A stretch of DNA of 52,382 bases, taken from NCBI GenBank assembly GCA_007695365.1, contig REDV01000084.1, positions 1-52,382 on the forward strand. Direction: 5' to 3'. The stretch is from Cryomorphaceae bacterium (lineage in GTDB: Bacteria > Bacteroidota > Bacteroidia > Flavobacteriales_D > SKUL01). Each line of letters starts with the position of its first letter. The stretch's first letter is position 1. Of this stretch, positions 2,502 to 47,255 are shown one piece after another. The position numbers and the translations under genes are program-made. Under the pieces are notes generated by a model. It was not told where the DNA came from, searched no databases, and saw only the letters and a program-made list of their open reading frames with translations.

Positions 2502-4347
2502 TGTACATTCGATACCAATGCTGAAAAGAAATCAGGGCGTAAAGGATGGAACTGTGGTCGGCGGTTCCGCGCCGGTGGTCTTTCACCACACCTTGAATTC
2601 TATCTACCGAGAAGCCCTCAAAATTACCAAAAAAGGCAGGGTCGAGAAGCTTATTGAGGATCTCCTGACTGGAAAGCAAGGTTCGGAGAGGCATTCCGAA
2701 TCCGGCCTTGCGTCTGCGAACAATATCGCGCGGCAAGTCGCTCTGAAAGGCGTCTTTCAGAATGCGCTTGGTGTTGTCCAGACCAGCAATACGATCGGAA
2801 ACGGGAAGCGACCACGCAAATTCAGCCAACCGGTGATCGAGAAAAGGGACCCTGCTTTCCATAGCGTGTGCCATGCTCATGCGGTCGAGGTAATGAAGGT
2901 TCTTCACCAGGAAGTTTTCACGCTCAAAATGCTGCAGGGCTTCGAAGTCGTCTCCCGCATAGTCACCCAGAAAATCTACCGAAGCAGGTTGGCTGAATGG
3001 CTGATACACAGATGAAGACGCATGCCAATCACCCACCACACTGAGCGGCGCAAAACGATGAGGGTGACCATAATAGCGACCGAGTTTGTAGAGGTATCGC
3101 TTCACGGCCTTGCCTTTTCCCCTGCCGGGATATAAGCCCGCCATGCGCCTGGCTAACATGCGGGCAATCGGAGCCGGAAGTTTGTCGAGCATACCTGCCA
3201 TCCGCAAAATGATGTGGCCGCCATAGCCGAAAAACAGTTCATCGGCCCCCATTCCGCTGAGCACCACCGTACTTTTTTGCGATGCTTTTGCGGTAATCAA
3301 ATAAGCGGGAATCTGCGACCCGTCGGCAATCAGGTCATCGGAAAACCGCAGGGTTTGATGAAGCAAATCCGTCGTAAGTTCATCACTGCCAATTGCTATG
3401 GCCTCGAAAGAGAGTTTCCATTCGCGGGCCAGTTCACGGGCGTAATGTGCGTCTGAGGTGGTTCCTTCGGCCTTCACATCACGCTCGTCTTTTACCGCGC
3501 AGTAGTGCCGAATTTCCGGGCGATTGCGAAGCAGCGATGCAATGATAGACGAGTCCAGCCCGCCGCTCAGAAAGGTGCTAACCGGCACATCGGAGCCCAG
3601 TCGAAGTTCAACGGCGTCCGTCAAAAGTGAGCGCACATGGTCGCGCCGTTCGGCGTAGGTTTTCGGAACATCCAAGGTTTGAGGCTTCCAGTAGCGATGG
3701 GTTTCCAACGTACCGCGCTCCAAATCAAAACGGAGGTAGCAGCCGGGTTCTAAGCGCTTCACTCCTTTGAAAAGGGTTTCCTGCCTCGGAACATATTTGA
3801 ATATGAAGTAGTTTCCGAGCTCGTCTTTGTTCAAGGCAGCCCGCACTTCACCTGCCAGAATAGCCTTGATTTCGCTTCCAAATCGCAGCACATTATCCTG
3901 AAAATGATAGTAAAGGGGTTTTACGCCCAACCTGTCGCGCACGAGGTACAGGGCATTTTCTTCTCGGTTGAAAAAGGCAAAAGCAAAATCGCCGTTGAGA
4001 TGCTCCAGGGCCCTGATGCCGTGCGTATTGAGCAACTCAAGCAGCACTTCGGTATCGGTTGAGGAGCGGGGCTGCCATCCTGAGGCTAATTTCGACTTCA
4101 ACAGGTGATGGTTGTAAATCTCTCCGTTGAAACAGATTACCGCATTTCCATCGGCCGAAGTCATGGGCTGTTTTCCGCGCTCGCTCAAATCGAGAATGGC
4201 CAGTCGACGGTGACCCAAAAACAGATGAAAGTCCTTGCACTGCTCTTCAAAAAAGCCCTCGCCATCGGGTCCGCGATGGGCCATTGCGGCAACCATGGCC
4301 GGTCCGTTCAGCTTTTCGCGCGACACATAACCAGCTATTCCGCACAT
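2491..4347 (-). CDS. asnB: asparagine synthase (glutamine-hydrolysing) type amidotransferase
   Basis: This 618-aa class II glutamine amidotransferase begins MCGIAGYVS, so Cys2 is the expected N-terminal nucleophile after Met removal. The N-terminal glutaminase domain (about 1-200) includes the RGPDGEG loop and CFNGEIYNH. The C-terminal synthetase domain has the PP-loop SGGLDSS near residue 263 and SGMGADELFFGYGGH. AsnB-type enzymes inside polysaccharide clusters usually amidate a sugar acid or cell-surface component rather than supply asparagine; such paralogues are recurrent in exosortase-associated EPS loci. Placement between two glycan genes with overlapping ends favours that role here. 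That part is inference; the family call is firm. Confidence 0.93.
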   Translation of the reverse strand: MCGIAGYVSREKLNGPAMVAAMAHRGPDGEGFFEEQCKDFHLFLGHRRLAILDLSERGKQPMTSADGNAVICFNGEIYNHHLLKSKLASGWQPRSSTDTEVLLELLNTHGIRALEHLNGDFAFAFFNREENALYLVRDRLGVKPLYYHFQDNVLRFGSEIKAILAGEVRAALNKDELGNYFIFKYVPRQETLFKGVKRLEPGCYLRFDLERGTLETHRYWKPQTLDVPKTYAERRDHVRSLLTDAVELRLGSDVPVSTFLSGGLDSSIIASLLRNRPEIRHYCAVKDERDVKAEGTTSDAHYARELAREWKLSFEAIAIGSDELTTDLLHQTLRFSDDLIADGSQIPAYLITAKASQKSTVVLSGMGADELFFGYGGHIILRMAGMLDKLPAPIARMLARRMAGLYPGRGKGKAVKRYLYKLGRYYGHPHRFAPLSVVGDWHASSSVYQPFSQPASVDFLGDYAGDDFEALQHFERENFLVKNLHYLDRMSMAHAMESRVPFLDHRLAEFAWSLPVSDRIAGLDNTKRILKDAFQSDLPRDIVRRRKAGFGMPLRTLLSSQEILNKLLDPAFFGNFEGFSVDRIQGVVKDHRRGTADHSSILYALISFQHWYRMYIEN

Positions 4348-5453
4348 GCTTGCAAGGTTTGGTTAAAAATGTTTCGGTAGCGCTGTACAAGGTGCTCTTC
4401 GGTAAATCCCGACTCATACCGTGCGCGACTTTTTCTACCCATCTCCATTACCAGATCCGGGTTTCGGATAAGCAAGGTAATGCGTTCAGCCAGTTCGGTT
4501 TCGTCGGTGGTATTCACCACAAATCCGTTTTGGTCGTGGAGCACCGATTCAACAATGGCACCCTGGTCGGAAGTGAGAACGGGCAATCCGGCAGCCATGG
4601 CTTCTACAATCGCCCAGGGATGTCCTTCGGGATGGGTGGGGATAAAAGCAAAAACGTCGGCGTTGTTGAGGGCTGCCCATTTATCGGCGCCGCTCACGGG
4701 TGAATGAAGATGCACTTGATGGAGGCTGTGTTTTTGAATCAATGACAGGCATCGCTCCTGGTAATCTGGATTGTCCCAGGCACCGTAGGCATTTAGGACG
4801 CATTCGCATTGAACTTCTTGCGGAAGGGCCGCCAGCGCACGCAACAGCAAATCAAAACCCTTTCCGGGGAGAAAATTGGACAAGTACAAAAGACGCAAGG
4901 GCTTAGCCGCCGAGACACGCTTAGCACCAAGCTCCGGAAAATCGCCACCATTGGGAGCTACAAAAATCTTTTCAGGTGGAAAAAGACCTTCAAAGAGGTA
5001 GCGAAGATTGTTTCCCAGCACGAGCACGCCTTCGGTTTTCTTCAGTGAATTTCTCACCCACCAGCGGGTCAAGGGCGAGGCGCTGTGGTACCAATTTCTG
5101 AACTGGCTTCCTCGAAGTTGCACCAAGACCTTTACCCCGGCACCCGATAGAATCCTTACGTACAAACTGTCTTTTAAAAAACCCATGGTGGTTTGGCTGA
5201 TGGGCACAAGGGCGAGGTCGGGTTTCAGGCTGCGGGCGAGCTGATGAAGTTGCCGGTAACCACCTATGCTTCGCCAGAGTTTTCGCCAGCCAAAGCGCCC
5301 CAGGCTTTTAACCGAGGTGTTGAGTCGGGTGTCAAAATGATGCAAATCAAACCATTCATTGAGGCGCGAACGAAGCAACAATTGCGTTGCAACGGCGGGC
5401 CCCATGAAGGGAGGAGGCAATTTACCCAACAAGAGTACCCGGGGTTTTGGCAT
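4335..5453 (-). CDS. glycosyltransferase family 4 (GT-B) protein
   Basis: This 372-aa GT-B glycosyltransferase opens with the N-terminal loop VLLLGKLPPPFMGPA, which leads into the acceptor-binding half. The C-terminal nucleotide-sugar domain shows LLYLSNFLPGKGFDLLLRAL and the donor-binding segment PSHPEG-like THPEGHPWAIVEAMAAGLPV, with the conserved E(x7)E-type spacing. It probably transfers a sugar from a nucleotide-activated donor to a growing glycan on the cytoplasmic face of the membrane; donor and acceptor are unknown. Its 3' end overlaps the start of asnB by 13 bp and its start lies inside the end of the upstream ligase gene, so the genes are translationally linked. Confidence 0.9.
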   Translation of the reverse strand: MPKPRVLLLGKLPPPFMGPAVATQLLLRSRLNEWFDLHHFDTRLNTSVKSLGRFGWRKLWRSIGGYRQLHQLARSLKPDLALVPISQTTMGFLKDSLYVRILSGAGVKVLVQLRGSQFRNWYHSASPLTRWWVRNSLKKTEGVLVLGNNLRYLFEGLFPPEKIFVAPNGGDFPELGAKRVSAAKPLRLLYLSNFLPGKGFDLLLRALAALPQEVQCECVLNAYGAWDNPDYQERCLSLIQKHSLHQVHLHSPVSGADKWAALNNADVFAFIPTHPEGHPWAIVEAMAAGLPVLTSDQGAIVESVLHDQNGFVVNTTDETELAERITLLIRNPDLVMEMGRKSRARYESGFTEEHLVQRYRNIFNQTLQACAE

Positions 5454-6716: not shown

Positions 6717-7868
6717 TTACGGGCTTTGCATGGATTGAACCACCCGCGCGGCGATGCTTTGGTAGCTAAAGTTTTCAACCGCTTGTTGGGTGCGTCGGCT
6801 CCTTTTGTCAGCATCCATTTCTTTGCCGGCAGCACGAAGCATATCAAGGTGATTTTCGGACACAAAGCTGCACAATGCTCCTGCCTGTCCGATATGTTTG
6901 AGGCTCTTATCTTCCGGCAGAACGAGAAAAAGCCCCGTTCCCATTCCTTCGAACACAGAGATGGCCGTGATGGGCCAAAATCCCACATCGGCAGCGTTGT
7001 AGCAGGCAAGTAGTTCAGAGTGCGAAGTGAAAGGAAGCAGAAAACAGCGCGAGGTAAATTTTCCGGATTCTACGCGTTGGCGAACAGCCTGCGAATGGAT
7101 ATCCTCACCCACGCCTACCAGCATCAAGTGAACACGGGGATTCTCATCCATCAGGTTTTCCATGGCTCCGATCCACGCATCGTATGACTTGTTTTCGGCC
7201 ATGCGCCCCACAGAGATATAGAGCACGTCTTCCCCTTTGAGGCCCAACTCTGCACGTTTATGTTCTCGCAAGGAAGGCTGAAAGGAAAAAACACGGTGGT
7301 TAAACCCAAGACTGATTTCCACAGATTTGTTTTCCAGGTGCTGATGCGAAGAGGCGCCCAGCCAATCCTTCAGCAGTTGTTTCGTTTCGGGCGTGTAGTG
7401 CAGCAATCGATGGGCGTTCTGGAGGGCCCTGAGGTAAATGGGTTTTTTCACGATATCCCTCCACCGCTTTCGCCAGCCCGAGAGATGAATGTAGGAATGA
7501 CTGTTGTCGCCCAGAAGCACAGCCGTTTTCCAGGGGGTATTGCCCAGCACCGGATAAGGAAAGACCTTTCCGAGGCCCATAACCAGAACAAACTGCGGAG
7601 AGGTTTCTTTTACGGCGTGCAATAAACCACGGCCTATCACGAACTGGCCACGCGCAAAAAGGGGCTTAAGGCGGCGCACTTCCACCCCTTCGTCAATGCA
7701 GATCTCAGGAAAGGGATAGTCGTTCACCTTGTTCTTTACGTATGCCGGCACCGCGTGCGAAGTCACCACCACCACCTCATGACCGGCAGCAGCCAAGGCC
7801 CTTGCGAGATGCACCTCGAGGTATCCGAGATTGGGAAGGTAGTGTCCGCAAACAAATGTAATGCGCAA
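6717..7868 (-). CDS. glycosyltransferase family 4 (GT-B) protein
   Basis: This 383-aa glycosyltransferase is the first gene of the minus-strand glycan operon. The N-terminus MRITFVCGHYLPNLGYLEVH is the typical family 4 acceptor-side start, with the glycine-rich loop near residue 14. The second half carries LYISVGRMAENKSYDAWIGA and a terminal donor-site region ending DVGFWPITAISVFEGMGTGL. The expected E(x7)E signature is less clear than in the transferase at 4335-5453, so donor specificity is open. It lies 11 bp upstream of the ligase-like gene. rpmH with its terminator lies immediately upstream on the same strand, so the operon needs its own promoter close to 7870; I do not see a clear one. 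Confidence 0.86.
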   Translation of the reverse strand: MRITFVCGHYLPNLGYLEVHLARALAAAGHEVVVVTSHAVPAYVKNKVNDYPFPEICIDEGVEVRRLKPLFARGQFVIGRGLLHAVKETSPQFVLVMGLGKVFPYPVLGNTPWKTAVLLGDNSHSYIHLSGWRKRWRDIVKKPIYLRALQNAHRLLHYTPETKQLLKDWLGASSHQHLENKSVEISLGFNHRVFSFQPSLREHKRAELGLKGEDVLYISVGRMAENKSYDAWIGAMENLMDENPRVHLMLVGVGEDIHSQAVRQRVESGKFTSRCFLLPFTSHSELLACYNAADVGFWPITAISVFEGMGTGLFLVLPEDKSLKHIGQAGALCSFVSENHLDMLRAAGKEMDADKRSRRTQQAVENFSYQSIAARVVQSMQSP

Positions 7869-16539: not shown

Positions 16540-18915
16540 TTAATCGCGTTTTTGCTCGGAGTCACTCCCGTAGCCATAGCCGTAGCCGTAGCCGTAGCCG
16601 TAGCCGTAGCCATAACCGTAGCCGTATTTACTGTAGTAATATTTCCAGCGTTTTTGTTTGATTCCATTGAGCAGCAATGCCACATGGCTCAGTTTATTGG
16701 CCTCAACAATTTCTTCCAGGTAGCGAACACCTTGCTTGGTGGCTCTTGCTGTATTCATTACGAACAAAGCATTATTGGTATGCTTCATCAGGACCAGTGC
16801 ATCACTGATAAGCATCAATGGCGGAGTATCGAAAATGATGTAATGATACCTTTCTTTGAGTTTTTCAACCAATTCGGTTACCCGATCATGCAACACCAAT
16901 TCGGATGCATTTGGTGGGATAGGGCCTGCAGTCATGATATGAAGATTCTCCACAGAGCTGTTTTGTATTGACTCTTCAAGGCTGGTTTTACCAACGATAT
17001 AGGTTGACAGTCCAATTTGATTCGGCAGTCCTATGGAGGAATGCACCTTGGGCTTGTGAAGGTCAAAATCAAGCAAAATGGTTTTTTTGCCTGCTTTGGC
17101 AATCATCGCCGCCAAATTGATATTTACAAAGGTCTTTCCCTCACCCGGGTGCAAAGAAGTGCTGAGCATAACATGTGAACCTCCGGATCCGCTCAGAAAC
17201 TGCAGGTTGGTTCTGATTGCACGAAAAGATTCAGCAATGTTAGACTTGGGGTTATCAACAACCACCAATCTCGACTCGCCTGTGTCCCGGTAAAGGGGCA
17301 GTCCACCGAGTACTGGTAAATTCGAAATATGCTTTAATTCCCTTGTGTTCTCAATTCGTTCAAAAAGCATCAATCTGACGAACCCAATTAACACAGCAAG
17401 AGCAAAGCCCGCACCTACAAAAATATACCAGATTCGCTGCTTATTCGGCCCTACTACGCCCAATGATCTGGAACGCTCAATGATACTGGTTTGAGGAATA
17501 ATACCTGCCCTAGCGATTACGGTATTGGCCCGTTTCTCAAGCAAGAATATGTACATGTCCTCGTTCACCTTTCTCTTGCGTTCGATGTTGAGTATTTCTC
17601 TCTGAGACCTGGGTATTTCCCGGATTAAACGTTCAATTTGTGCTATTTGAGAGATTAACCCAGCTTTCTTCTGCATCATGGCTTCGCGGGTATTACCAAG
17701 ATAAATCAGGATATCCTTTCGCAAAGCTTGCATGGCCTCATCCGACTCGCGGATACGTGGATTTTCGCCGGTAACATTAAACAGACTGAGATTTCTTTGA
17801 ATTTGACGCTCATACAGCTCGTTCAAAGACCGTCTTAAAAACGCGTCATCGTCAAGTACATAAAATGAGGGTGGCAGGATCCGCTCTTCATCGCTTTTAA
17901 AAACATACTCTTCCAGAGCATCAATCGATTGCAGCCCTAACTCCAACCTCCTCACGTCCGAGTCAAAACTGCTAATGGTTTCAAAGTGCTTGCGCTCTTC
18001 TCGCGATAAATCGAGGATGGCTTGCCCTTCTTTGTATTGCTCCAAATCTGATTCGAGGCTATCGAGAATAGAAGCAACCCGACCTAACTGACGATCGATA
18101 TAATCAAGCGTATTATCATTCAATTCCTTCTGATTATCCAGCGTACTCTGAATGTACGTAACAGAGAGACTGTCCAGAAAAAGCCTGGCCCGCTGCTCAA
18201 CCGCATCCTCAATCGAAAGCTCGAGTATGCTCGTAAAGTCAACATTCTGAATATTCAACCCCCTTTTGTAACGATTTACGAGGTATGTTAAACTGTTCAC
18301 CTGAAACTGATAGTTGTTCACAGCCAATCGCATGAAAACCTGGTCACTTAGATGTGGTGTTTTGCTCACTTTGATCACAAAATCGTCGGAAATCACCTGC
18401 TCATTGAATGGGAAAAGCTTTTCTGTATCAACGCCATCTTTCTGGTACCTGAGCATGTACTCAGAAGGTGAAACAACAAGCAAATCGATTTTTTGCTGAT
18501 AAAGCTTGGCATTCAATAATTTTACCTCAATGTCAAGACCGTCAAAATGTGTTACCTCTGTGGTTTTAACCTTACCTTTGATGAAGTAGGATAATTCAAA
18601 GTTGAGCTTTTTAATGGTCTTTTCAATCAAATCATGCGATTTCAGCACGCGTTTTTGATTGGTGATGTCCGCATAGTTTTGATAAAAGCCGGACAGCCCC
18701 CTGTAAACCTGAGATTGCAATTCATACCCAGATTCAGGCTTTAACAGGATTTCCACCTTTGCGGCGTAGATATCTGCCATCCTGTGCGTGTACAAGTATG
18801 CAGCAACGCCGAATATGGCGGTAAATAATACCACCAGGTACCAGTTCTTGCCGACAAATTTACCGACTACCCTGAGGTCGTCAGCTTCAATCACTCCCCC
18901 CTTTTTTTCGGCCAT
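16540..18915 (-). CDS. polysaccharide co-polymerase / tyrosine autokinase (Wzc-like) with Tyr-Gly tail
   Basis: The 791-aa inner-membrane protein controls chain length and export of an EPS or capsule. A Wzz-type domain with a first membrane helix (WYLVVLFTAIFGVAAYLY, about residues 28-46) is followed by a long periplasmic coiled-coil region and a second helix near residue 490 (IWYIFVGAGFALAVLIGFV). The BY-kinase domain has Walker A PGEGKT near residue 588, Walker A' LLDFDLHKPK and Walker B YIIFDTPPLML. The C-terminus is a run of about nine Tyr-Gly pairs (residues about 765-783), which would serve as the autophosphorylated tyrosine cluster. A TATATTTG promoter element lies 23 bp upstream. It is the first gene of the unit reading into the ABC exporter and wecB and is divergent from the exosortase module. 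Confidence 0.94.
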   Translation of the reverse strand: MAEKKGGVIEADDLRVVGKFVGKNWYLVVLFTAIFGVAAYLYTHRMADIYAAKVEILLKPESGYELQSQVYRGLSGFYQNYADITNQKRVLKSHDLIEKTIKKLNFELSYFIKGKVKTTEVTHFDGLDIEVKLLNAKLYQQKIDLLVVSPSEYMLRYQKDGVDTEKLFPFNEQVISDDFVIKVSKTPHLSDQVFMRLAVNNYQFQVNSLTYLVNRYKRGLNIQNVDFTSILELSIEDAVEQRARLFLDSLSVTYIQSTLDNQKELNDNTLDYIDRQLGRVASILDSLESDLEQYKEGQAILDLSREERKHFETISSFDSDVRRLELGLQSIDALEEYVFKSDEERILPPSFYVLDDDAFLRRSLNELYERQIQRNLSLFNVTGENPRIRESDEAMQALRKDILIYLGNTREAMMQKKAGLISQIAQIERLIREIPRSQREILNIERKRKVNEDMYIFLLEKRANTVIARAGIIPQTSIIERSRSLGVVGPNKQRIWYIFVGAGFALAVLIGFVRLMLFERIENTRELKHISNLPVLGGLPLYRDTGESRLVVVDNPKSNIAESFRAIRTNLQFLSGSGGSHVMLSTSLHPGEGKTFVNINLAAMIAKAGKKTILLDFDLHKPKVHSSIGLPNQIGLSTYIVGKTSLEESIQNSSVENLHIMTAGPIPPNASELVLHDRVTELVEKLKERYHYIIFDTPPLMLISDALVLMKHTNNALFVMNTARATKQGVRYLEEIVEANKLSHVALLLNGIKQKRWKYYYSKYGYGYGYGYGYGYGYGYGYGSDSEQKRD
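16564..16630 (-). repeat. hexanucleotide repeat encoding (Tyr-Gly)n in the Wzc-like kinase
   Basis: The plus strand reads as near-perfect tandem CCGTAG/CCATAG hexamers over about 60 bp. On the coding strand this is TAYGGN repeated, giving alternating Tyr and Gly. In-frame slippage would change the number of phosphorylatable tyrosines without breaking the frame. Confidence 0.85.
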
Positions 18916-44638: not shown

Positions 44639-44745
44639 CAAAAGCAAGACGGGAAGCTTCTTTCCGATTTGCCCAACAAAATCTAAACCCAACCGAAAGG
44701 CCCAACGGCAATACTTTTTCTTTTTCCCCAAAGGTGATTTTAAGC

Positions 44746-45300
44746 TATGATAAGCAGGATTACCTGCGGTGATCCTAAAAGGGGGGACAGACAAGAAAAC
44801 AAGGCCATTGCTTGACGCAATGGCTTTTATTTTCCTGCACAGCCCGGTTGAAAGATATGATAAGCAGGATTACCTGCGGTGATCCTAAAGTGGGGATAGA
44901 CAACAAAACAAGGCCATTGCTTGATGCAATGGCTTTTATTTTCCCGCACAGCCCGGTTGAAAGATATGATAAGCAGGATTACCTGCGGTGATCCTAAAGT
45001 GGGGATAGACAACAAAACAAGGCCATTGCTTGATGCAATGGCTTTTATTTTCCCGCACAGCCCGGTTGAAAGATATGATAAGCAGGATTACCTGCGGTGA
45101 TCCTAAAGTGGGGATAGACAACAAAACAAGGCCATTGCTTGATGCAATGGCTTTTATTTTCCCGCACAGCCCGGTTGAAAGATATGATAAGCAGGATTAC
45201 CTGCGGTGATCCTAAAGTGGGGATAGACAACAAAACAAGGCCATTGCTTGATGCAATGGCTTTTATTTTCCCGCACAGCCCGGTTGAAAGCATAGCTTTC
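44746..45300 (+). repeat. tandem array of five 109-bp terminator-like units next to tRNA-Pro
   Basis: Units begin at 44746, 44856, 44965, 45074 and 45183. The last four are identical by eye; the first is 110 bp and carries a handful of substitutions. Read on the plus strand, each unit has hairpin 1 (AGGATTACC TGC GGTGATCCT) and hairpin 2 (GCCATTG, 7-base loop, CAATGGC) followed by TTTTATTTT, then a tail CCCGCACAGCCCGG. The second hairpin with its T-run has the form of an intrinsic terminator. There are no unique spacers, so this is not a CRISPR array. Apart from the small-protein promoter and this array, 44608-45357 holds no gene. Confidence 0.92.
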
Positions 45301-45323
45301 CCGGGCTGTGCGGGAAAATAAAA
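45261..45323. repeat. 23-bp perfect inverted repeat joining array 1 to the tRNA-Pro terminator
   Basis: The arms at 45261-45283 and 45301-45323 are exact reverse complements. An inner stem GAAAGC/GCTTTC (45286-45291 and 45295-45300) with an ATA loop extends the cruciform. The left arm is the tail of the last array unit; the right arm is the tail of the tRNA terminator on the other strand. Confidence 0.93.
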
Positions 45324-45347: not shown

Positions 45348-45357
45348 GTGTTTCTTG

Positions 45358-45432
45358 TCGGGGTGGCAGGATTCGAACCTGCGACCTCCTGCTCCCAAAG
45401 CAGGCGCGATAACCGGGCTACGCTACACCCCG
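45358..45432 (-). tRNA. tRNA-Pro (anticodon TGG)
   Basis: The 75-nt gene folds as a standard cloverleaf: acceptor CGGGGTG/CACCCCG with discriminator A, anticodon arm CCTGC TTTGGGA GCAGG with anticodon TGG, and T-arm GCAGG TTCGAAT CCTGC. The 3' CCA is not encoded. A promoter element lies upstream at 45485-45492 and an intrinsic terminator downstream. Confidence 0.96.
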
Positions 45433-46654: not shown

Positions 46655-47117
46655 AGCCACCTAAGTGTTGGAGATTTTTTGTTTCACCACAGGCTCAAAC
46701 TGCCTTGGGGATTGCCTAAAGGCGATCCCGAAAGGGGGAAACAACAGCCAAATCCAGCCACAAAAGTGGCCGGGATTTTTTGTTTCACCACAGGCTCAAA
46801 CTGCCTTGGGGATTGCCTAAAGGCGATCCCGAAAGGGGGAAACAACAGCCAAATCCAGCCACAAAAGTGGCCGGGATTTTTTGTTTCACCACAGGCTCAA
46901 ACTGCCTTGGGGATTGCCTAAAGGCGATCCCGAAAGGGGGAAACAACAGCCAAATCCAGCCACAAAAGTGGCCGGGATTTTTTGTTTCACCACAGGCTCA
47001 AACTGCCTTGGGGATTGCCTAAAGGCGATCCCGAAAGGGGGAAACAACAGCCAAATCCAGCCACAAAAGTGGCCGGGATTTTTTGTTTCACCACAGGCTC
47101 AAACTGCGTTTGGCCTT
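46655..47117 (+). repeat. tandem array of four full plus two partial 101-bp terminator-like units next to tRNA-Ser
   Basis: The phrase GTTTCACCACAGGCTCAAAC recurs at 46681, 46782, 46883, 46984 and 47085, exactly every 101 bp. Full units are identical by eye. Each contains, on the plus strand, hairpin 1 (GGGATTGCC TAAA GGCGATCCC) and hairpin 2 (AAATCC, GCCAC AAAA GTGGC, GGATTT) ending in six T residues. A degraded copy of hairpin 2 (GCCACCTAAGTG, then GAGATTTTTT) at 46655-46680 marks the left edge; the right copy is cut short by the palindrome at 47077-47134. The unit length is not a multiple of three and there are no unique spacers. Confidence 0.92.
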
Positions 47118-47134
47118 TGGTGAAACAAAAAATC
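47077..47134. repeat. 17-bp perfect inverted repeat joining array 2 to the tRNA-Ser terminator
   Basis: The arms at 47077-47093 and 47118-47134 are exact reverse complements (GATTTTTTGTTTCACCA). The 24-bp spacer continues the pairing with AGGC/GCCT and AAAC/GTTT. The left arm belongs to the array, the right arm to the minus-strand tRNA terminator tail. Confidence 0.93.
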
Positions 47135-47160
47135 CTGCACCCTATTCAGGGTGCAGGATT
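47127..47160 (-). terminator. intrinsic terminator of tRNA-Ser
   Basis: On the minus strand a 13-bp stem (arms 47148-47160 and 47131-47143, 4-base loop) is followed by a run of six T residues and GTTTCACC. It starts 6 bp after the tRNA 3' end. Confidence 0.87.
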
Positions 47161-47166
47161 TGGCTG

Positions 47167-47255
47167 CGGAGAGAGGGGGATTCGAACCCCCGATACCCGT
47201 TTCCGAGTATGCATGTTTAGCAAACATGTGGTTTCAGCCACTCACCCACCTCTCC
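47167..47255 (-). tRNA. tRNA-Ser (anticodon GCT)
   Basis: The 89-nt gene has a class II cloverleaf with a long variable arm. The acceptor is GGAGAGG/TCTCTCC with discriminator G, the anticodon arm CATGT TTGCTAA ACATG with anticodon GCT, the variable arm CATACTCGGAAACGGGTATC, and the T-arm GGGGG TTCGAAT CCCCC. The 3' CCA is not encoded. It reads AGC/AGT codons. Confidence 0.96.

Follow-up and report, generated by a model that had tools for sequence, protein, structure and literature searches.

Inverted tandem repeats joining a tRNA 3' flank to a T-arm-like hairpin lie behind tRNA genes in scattered Bacteroidota

Two tRNA genes on the minus strand of the window, by which we mean the whole 52,382-nucleotide stretch of Cryomorphaceae DNA analysed here, are each faced from downstream by a tandem array of repeats on the plus strand, so that gene and array converge. 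The tRNA-Ser(GCT) gene (47166-47255, ARAGORN and Rfam RF00005) is followed on the same strand by a trailer whose terminator hairpin, found by a terminator scan at 47130-47161, has its own inner stem, TGCACCC/GGGTGCA. The opposing array (46655-47113) consists of 101-bp units with a partial first copy, as established by TRF and self-search; TRF itself reports 46673-47107, period 101, 4.3 copies and 100% matches, in what is a draft assembly. Each unit ends in a hairpin that we call X (GGATTGCCTAAAGGCGATCC in the Ser array), and a pattern search placed its four copies on the plus strand at 46709-46728, 46810-46829, 46911-46930 and, closest to the tRNA, 47012-47031. The terminator scan also detected the inner stem-loop (GCCAC/GTGGC) of the proximal unit's terminator at 47060-47073 (+), with further copies at 46757, 46858 and 46959. 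Trailer and array meet in an exact 18-bp inverted repeat with arms at 47076-47093 and 47119-47136, and the 25 bases that separate the arms are themselves an imperfect palindrome. A first-pass annotation, made from the sequence alone, had described this meeting point as a perfect palindrome of 17 bp; its perfection stands and its length is corrected to 18 bp.

The sister case is the tRNA-Pro(TGG) gene (45357-45432, -, ARAGORN), which is faced by an array of 109-bp units in 5.0 copies (44742-45290, +, TRF and pattern search) with X hairpins (GGATTACCTGCGGTGATCC) at 44757, 44867, 44976, 45085 and 45194 on the plus strand. Sequence and inverted repeat place the palindromic meeting point of this trailer and its array at 45263-45321. 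On re-reading, the tRNA-Ser trailer and unit sequences quoted in the first-pass annotation are correct, and so are its statements that at both genes the array runs opposite to the tRNA and holds four to five copies, with the caveat that the counts come from a draft assembly. Self-search found the 101-bp Ser unit at no other site in its own genome. At a distance from both arrays, the window also contains a tandem repeat of the hexanucleotide CCGTAG (16568-16626, 9.8 copies).

Read in the sense of the tRNA, the region comprises the tRNA, its trailer with terminator and T-tract, some 20-30 bases, the centre of the palindrome, an inverted copy of the trailer, a spacer, X and then the next unit. 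The copied flank begins near the first base beyond the mature tRNA and, by way of the outer arms of the terminator and the T-tract, reaches the palindrome centre, but the inner terminator stem of the copy differs from that of the tRNA. Across 44 loci from many genomes, identity between trailer and inverted copy was 0.86 in the basal part before the inner stem, 0.59 in the inner stem and 0.91 in the post-terminator arm, and at 36 of them the inner stem was less conserved than both flanks (Wilcoxon 1e-7 and 5e-9). Every unit joins X to an inverted copy of its own tRNA's 3' flank. The earlier impression of identical flanks around a different hairpin, and the judgement that chance was an unlikely cause, are borne out by these loci.

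The RNA from trailer to X in the window, in tRNA sense, is predicted to fold as a four-way junction (-88.5 kcal/mol, z -10.8), in which the two inner stems form the side arms and the palindromic meeting point (47076-47136) the apical arm, an assignment based on sequence, fold and compensatory changes. This pairing, which the first-pass annotation overlooked, explains why the flanks are shared and the hairpins are not. Between this genome (G000) and a congener (G001), 45 of the 51 pairs of the junction are unchanged, three have changed on both sides and still pair, one has changed on one side and two are broken; altered columns make up 10 of 31 unpaired versus 10 of 102 paired ones. The junction was recovered at 30 of 46 loci, against 15 of 81 control tRNAs and 67 of 460 shuffles. 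Such covariation fits selection on pairing and equally fits correction of the palindrome at the DNA level.

The main rival to the reading that we favour builds on this fold and takes the array for a selected cis-structure, a 3' insulator of the tRNA gene whose junction and repeated, partly bidirectional terminators would halt transcription that reads through from the tRNA or arrives from the opposite side, or block exonuclease at the trailer. Besides the stability of the fold, its enrichment over control tRNAs and the three compensatory changes, it can call on the terminator-like sites of the region (21 versus 3.4 expected) and on the arrays at tRNA-Arg(acg), which have been retained across several genera of one family. 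Insulation, however, requires neither a T-arm hairpin bearing a C.A pair (see below) nor 4-11 copies, many tRNAs of array-bearing genomes manage without such an array, the palindrome covariation is as much to be expected from hairpin-mediated conversion of DNA, and the conserved fifth pair of X is mismatched in RNA of the tRNA sense. We consider this reading rather unlikely, though it is the strongest of the competitors.

Hairpin X, also overlooked in the first pass, unites arrays that otherwise differ. Its consensus is GGATCRC-loop-GYAATCC in tRNA sense and GGATTRC-loop-GYGATCC in array sense. In the Pro array of the window, X (GGATCACCGCAGGTAATCCTGC) carries the T-stem of the cognate tRNA-Pro, GCAGG/CCTGC. 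More generally, the first base after AATCC matches the cognate T-stem in 78% of cases versus 39% after shuffling (0 of 1000 shuffles), and covariation with the cognate T-stem is seen at the two pairs that immediately flank the X stem (77 versus 39% and 47 versus 28%). At tRNA-Arg(tcg) in genomes G003 and G050 and at tRNA-Pro in G003 and G009, X is followed without a gap by a direct copy of the tRNA's 3' end. Because its flanks follow the cognate T-stem and because it runs into tRNA 3'-end copies, X is, judged by its sequence, a cognate T-arm in which ATCRC-loop-GYAAT has taken the place of the T-loop TTCGAAT. Its loop is unlike a T-loop in both length and sequence.

A survey of 134 tRNA loci that had not been selected for X revealed a long inverted repeat at 38 of them. 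When the fifth pair of X was left free in the search, with AATCC still fixed, 23 of the 25 hairpins picked in this survey had C.A at that position; inspection of the other two by eye showed one to be a mis-pick, the real hairpin also having C.A, and one a chance pick. In array sense this pair is a U.G wobble, in tRNA sense a mismatch, and pairs 6 and 7 vary with compensation. Among the surveyed tRNAs no X was found in non-inverted orientation, X and its trailer copy being always inverted. All 17 tRNAs at which X was seen have AT as T-loop bases 59-60, and one of these cases, at a tRNA-Glu (L179), is probably a chance hairpin. Because AATCC is built into the search expression, which could overlook X variants where the T-loop is different, this count is evidence for X following the tRNA and no proof that other variants are absent. 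A second kind of array, described below as class B to distinguish it from the X-bearing class A, occurred at no tRNA of that T-loop type (0 of 10 with A59; Fisher 1e-7).

The units, of about 100 bp, encode no gene, no class A unit contains an enzyme, and the arrays have no match in Rfam at gathering or relaxed thresholds. The arrays also contain no recognisable promoter: the motif TAnnTTTG precedes 2% of outermost and 0% of internal units versus 83% of tRNAs. The succession of hairpin, spacer and terminator is that of an sRNA, and one could take each unit for the gene of an sRNA of about 80 nt, reaching from X to its own terminator and amplified for dosage, the more so as the fifth pair of X is a wobble in array sense and every Ser unit has a terminator-like site. 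The missing promoter, together with upstream genes that at both window arrays read away from the array, nevertheless makes independent sRNA genes unlikely, and the spacer shows neither antisense complementarity to the cognate tRNA nor homology with it; we rate this idea as highly improbable. An antisense role of the spacer towards the cognate tRNA was rejected at a mean rank of 0.50, and its resemblance to a degenerate piece of that tRNA, convincing by eye, was unsupported on test.

Inspection of 420 bases downstream of the tRNA at 30 fetched loci of the own genome revealed class A arrays at six tRNAs, namely Ser-gct, Pro-tgg, Arg-tct, Gly-gcc, Ser-tga and Val-tac, the units of which have unrelated trailers and X in common. 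Five further tRNAs (Met, Lys, Asn, Leu-cag and, in divergent form, Arg-cct) carry direct repeats of class B instead. The architecture noticed at two tRNAs in the window therefore extends to at least six in this genome and to dozens of Bacteroidota; the first-pass annotation would have been contradicted by a lack of arrays at other tRNAs and in relatives, and they are present in both. In the congener, the orthologous tRNA-Ser(GCT) has an array with one full unit, about three units fewer than in the own genome.

The X pattern occurred in 65 of 120 related genomes, often in tandem, and a reversed control pattern had almost no matches, although single matches may be due to chance. A strict pattern of two hairpins about 100 bp apart, with no tRNA sequence in the query, was run against 84,980 species and returned 38 loci, nearly all from Bacteroidota, mostly Flavobacteriales and also Alistipes and Neolewinella; one, at a contig end in a Nitrotoga MAG, is perhaps contamination. 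Thirty-one of the 38 are convergent behind a tRNA, including an array of about 11 copies behind tRNA-Pro on a 738-kb contig (L114), one lies behind a truncated tRNA and six are at contig ends (L112, L113, L130, L132, L133 and L140), where the fetched contig stops 23-338 bp from the match and no tRNA is found on the fetched DNA. At the locus with the truncated gene (L126), the array ends at a tRNA-Arg(tct) broken off in the anticodon arm (7300-7370), a case of a tRNA lost and an array retained. The proximal X usually lies 129-156 bp from the tRNA, and the hosts are tRNAs for Arg, Pro, Ser, Val, Cys and Gly. Around the arrays lie mostly ordinary chromosomal genes. The arrays were found on none of the viral contigs searched, and a phage origin was rejected on this ground.

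Several contigs of the own genome (C47, C65, C119, C140, C146, C85, C8, C38 and C147) stop a few hundred bases or less from a tRNA or X array, so these repeats probably break the assembly. That short-read assembly had itself created or multiplied the repeats might be suspected from the draft state of this genome (154 contigs) and from the several tRNAs at its contig ends; the same architecture nevertheless recurs in many independent genomes, including the near-complete G043, in two contigs, and the 738-kb contig with its roughly 11 copies, and an artefact is scarcely credible.

Some arrays are bounded by a direct repeat of the tRNA 3' end. Such repeats were seen at L098, L184, L172, L203 and L131 and as near copies at L123 and L139, and are decayed or absent elsewhere. 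The array behind tRNA-Ser(gga) at L131 is closed by an exact copy (ATCCCTTCCTCTCTGCAA), and the next gene, directly past the array (4194-5039, -), encodes an IntI/Xer-like tyrosine recombinase that scores below cutoff against TIGR02249 (191 of 265 bits). A frame-broken relative lies beside the tRNA-Ser(gga) array at L123, which like L131 is a Flavobacteriaceae record; no tyrosine recombinase was found beside the arrays at the remaining loci examined. A mobility gene common to the array flanks was accordingly rejected as a candidate, these flanks consisting of ordinary genes except at L123 and L131.

At the Met, Lys, Asn and Leu(cag) genes, class B repeats the last 16 or so tRNA bases and the trailer directly around the motif GGGC-GAGARGTYTATG-CCG...CGG-TAA-GCCC. 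This motif is RNA-like, its outer stem is once more the T-stem, and it has no match in Rfam. Class B was recognised in the own genome at L009, L013, L021, L036 and L022, and elsewhere at L042, L044, L045, L160, L227 and L245. It is present in one congener and absent from the other at tRNA-Lys and tRNA-Asn; at tRNA-Lys, exactly two units (302 bp) stand in the own genome and none in the congener. As a second, related class, class B supports the picture of a DNA element.

Our favoured reading, to which we assign a probability of about 45%, is that the array is a non-autonomous, non-coding DNA repeat targeted to the T-loop of tRNA genes and tandemly amplified by recombination, by a mechanism that we infer. 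The element would insert in, or recombine at, the T-loop, and insertion would re-supply the tRNA 3' end and so leave the tRNA intact. Recombination may take place at X, which would serve as the junction and be recognised in its folded hairpin form. Since no other examined array has a recombinase alongside, the recombining enzyme would presumably be supplied in trans, the sole candidate seen beside an array being the IntI/Xer-type tyrosine recombinase. Recombination between repeats could make arrays grow, shrink and homogenise, and either selection on pairing or conversion mediated by hairpins might maintain the perfection of the long palindrome.

The favoured reading draws on the fact that a pattern blind to tRNA finds its matches behind tRNAs, on the covariation with the T-stem, on the restriction to AT-type T-loops and on the absence of promoters, as well as on the difference of about three units between congeners and the presence or absence of class B at tRNA-Lys. 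Against it stand the lack of an enzyme in class A units, the mostly ordinary flanking genes and the absence from viral contigs; the loop of X is unlike a T-loop, so X is not a canonical att core, and the arrays at Arg(acg) across genera look like long vertical maintenance. That retention suggests that the element is old at some sites and perhaps selected, which keeps the insulator alive.

The same sequences might also have arisen as a neutral by-product, the terminator and T-arm hairpins of tRNAs provoking template switching and slippage that left duplications with neither function nor dedicated machinery. Its recognisable parts do stem from the trailer and 3' end of the tRNA, template switching typically leaves palindrome centres and direct repeats, and the copies are homogenised and variable in number; but independent accidents would not yield, in distant families and at tRNAs for Arg, Pro, Ser, Val, Gly and Cys, one and the same core (ATCRC..GYAAT, its C.A pair invariant), nor an X that is always inverted among the surveyed tRNAs, and we think such an origin unlikely. 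Units derived from tRNA, a junction in the T-arm, closure by tRNA 3'-end copies and a common core with C.A across families indicate a dedicated process at the T-loop, not repeated accidents, and the most economical such process is site-specific insertion or recombination that also restores the 3' end of the tRNA.

No publication on this repeat family was found among open-access papers, and it is a member of no known family tested. The rtT or tyrT terminal repeats of Escherichia coli (Rfam rtT) are tandem repeats of about 100-180 bp that lie immediately behind a tRNA, contain tRNA 3'-end sequence, and are direct and codirectional with the tRNA. Class A resembles them in its position right behind a tRNA gene and in tRNA 3'-end sequence, but its units are inverted, capped by a T-arm-like hairpin and found at many tRNAs, the tRNA 3' end is copied only at some array ends, and Rfam gives no match; class B of the own genome is the nearer analogue. 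With REP/BIME sequences and their RAYTs it shares a short, imperfect, repeated extragenic hairpin with a conserved mismatch, but there is no fixed foot tetranucleotide (GTAG/CGTC), the foot of X varying with the cognate T-stem, and the arrays occur strictly with tRNA genes, their hairpin being joined to a trailer copy in inverse orientation. Like integron attC sites with IntI, the units are similarly oriented and each ends in an imperfect hairpin with a variable terminal loop, and an IntI/Xer-like recombinase adjoins one array, with a relative at another; the arms of X, however, are GGATCRC/GYAATCC and not RYYYAAC/GTTRRRY, cargo genes are lacking and nearly all arrays examined are without the recombinase. 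Integrative elements at tRNA 3' ends (attL/attR) have the same target, from T-loop to 3' end, and some arrays are likewise bounded by a direct copy of that end with the tRNA intact; class A differs in being about 100-180 bp long and non-coding, in its inverted trailer copy, in a core not identical to the T-loop and in having no integrase inside its units.

Taken further, and with more doubt than the favoured reading, these repeats may form an undescribed minimal class of mobile DNA in Bacteroidota: gene-less tRNA parasites made of a decoy T-arm and an inverted tail, their folded hairpins recognised by a host or foreign recombinase, with class B as a sister class using another core at tRNAs with a different T-loop base. 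The family is scattered through Bacteroidota, often breaks assemblies at tRNA genes and is apparently uncatalogued. If mobile, it would be a tRNA-targeting element of extremely small size and would offer a testable model of recombination on hairpin substrates; if selected, it would bring to light a structure hitherto unknown on the 3' side of tRNA genes in bacteria.

Longer copies of class B (L227, L245 and the second unit of L021) contain an extra structured domain of about 190 bases (CCCCGATTAGAGAATCA..TGATTCACTTTATCG) inside the motif, which suggests that a larger structured RNA or element gave rise to the short form by deletion. Other tRNAs are accompanied by partial tRNA copies with small GIY-YIG genes set between them. 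On contig C85 of the own genome (L024, 1-612), two tandem 295-bp copies ahead of tRNA-Arg(acg) contain the first 22 bases of the tRNA, a perfect palindrome and a small GIY-YIG nuclease ORF (95 and 84 aa). In genome G006 (L045, 1693-2010), a class B unit and an altered copy of tRNA-Asn flank a gene for a 100-aa GIY-YIG nuclease, whose reading frame continues into the tRNA copy.
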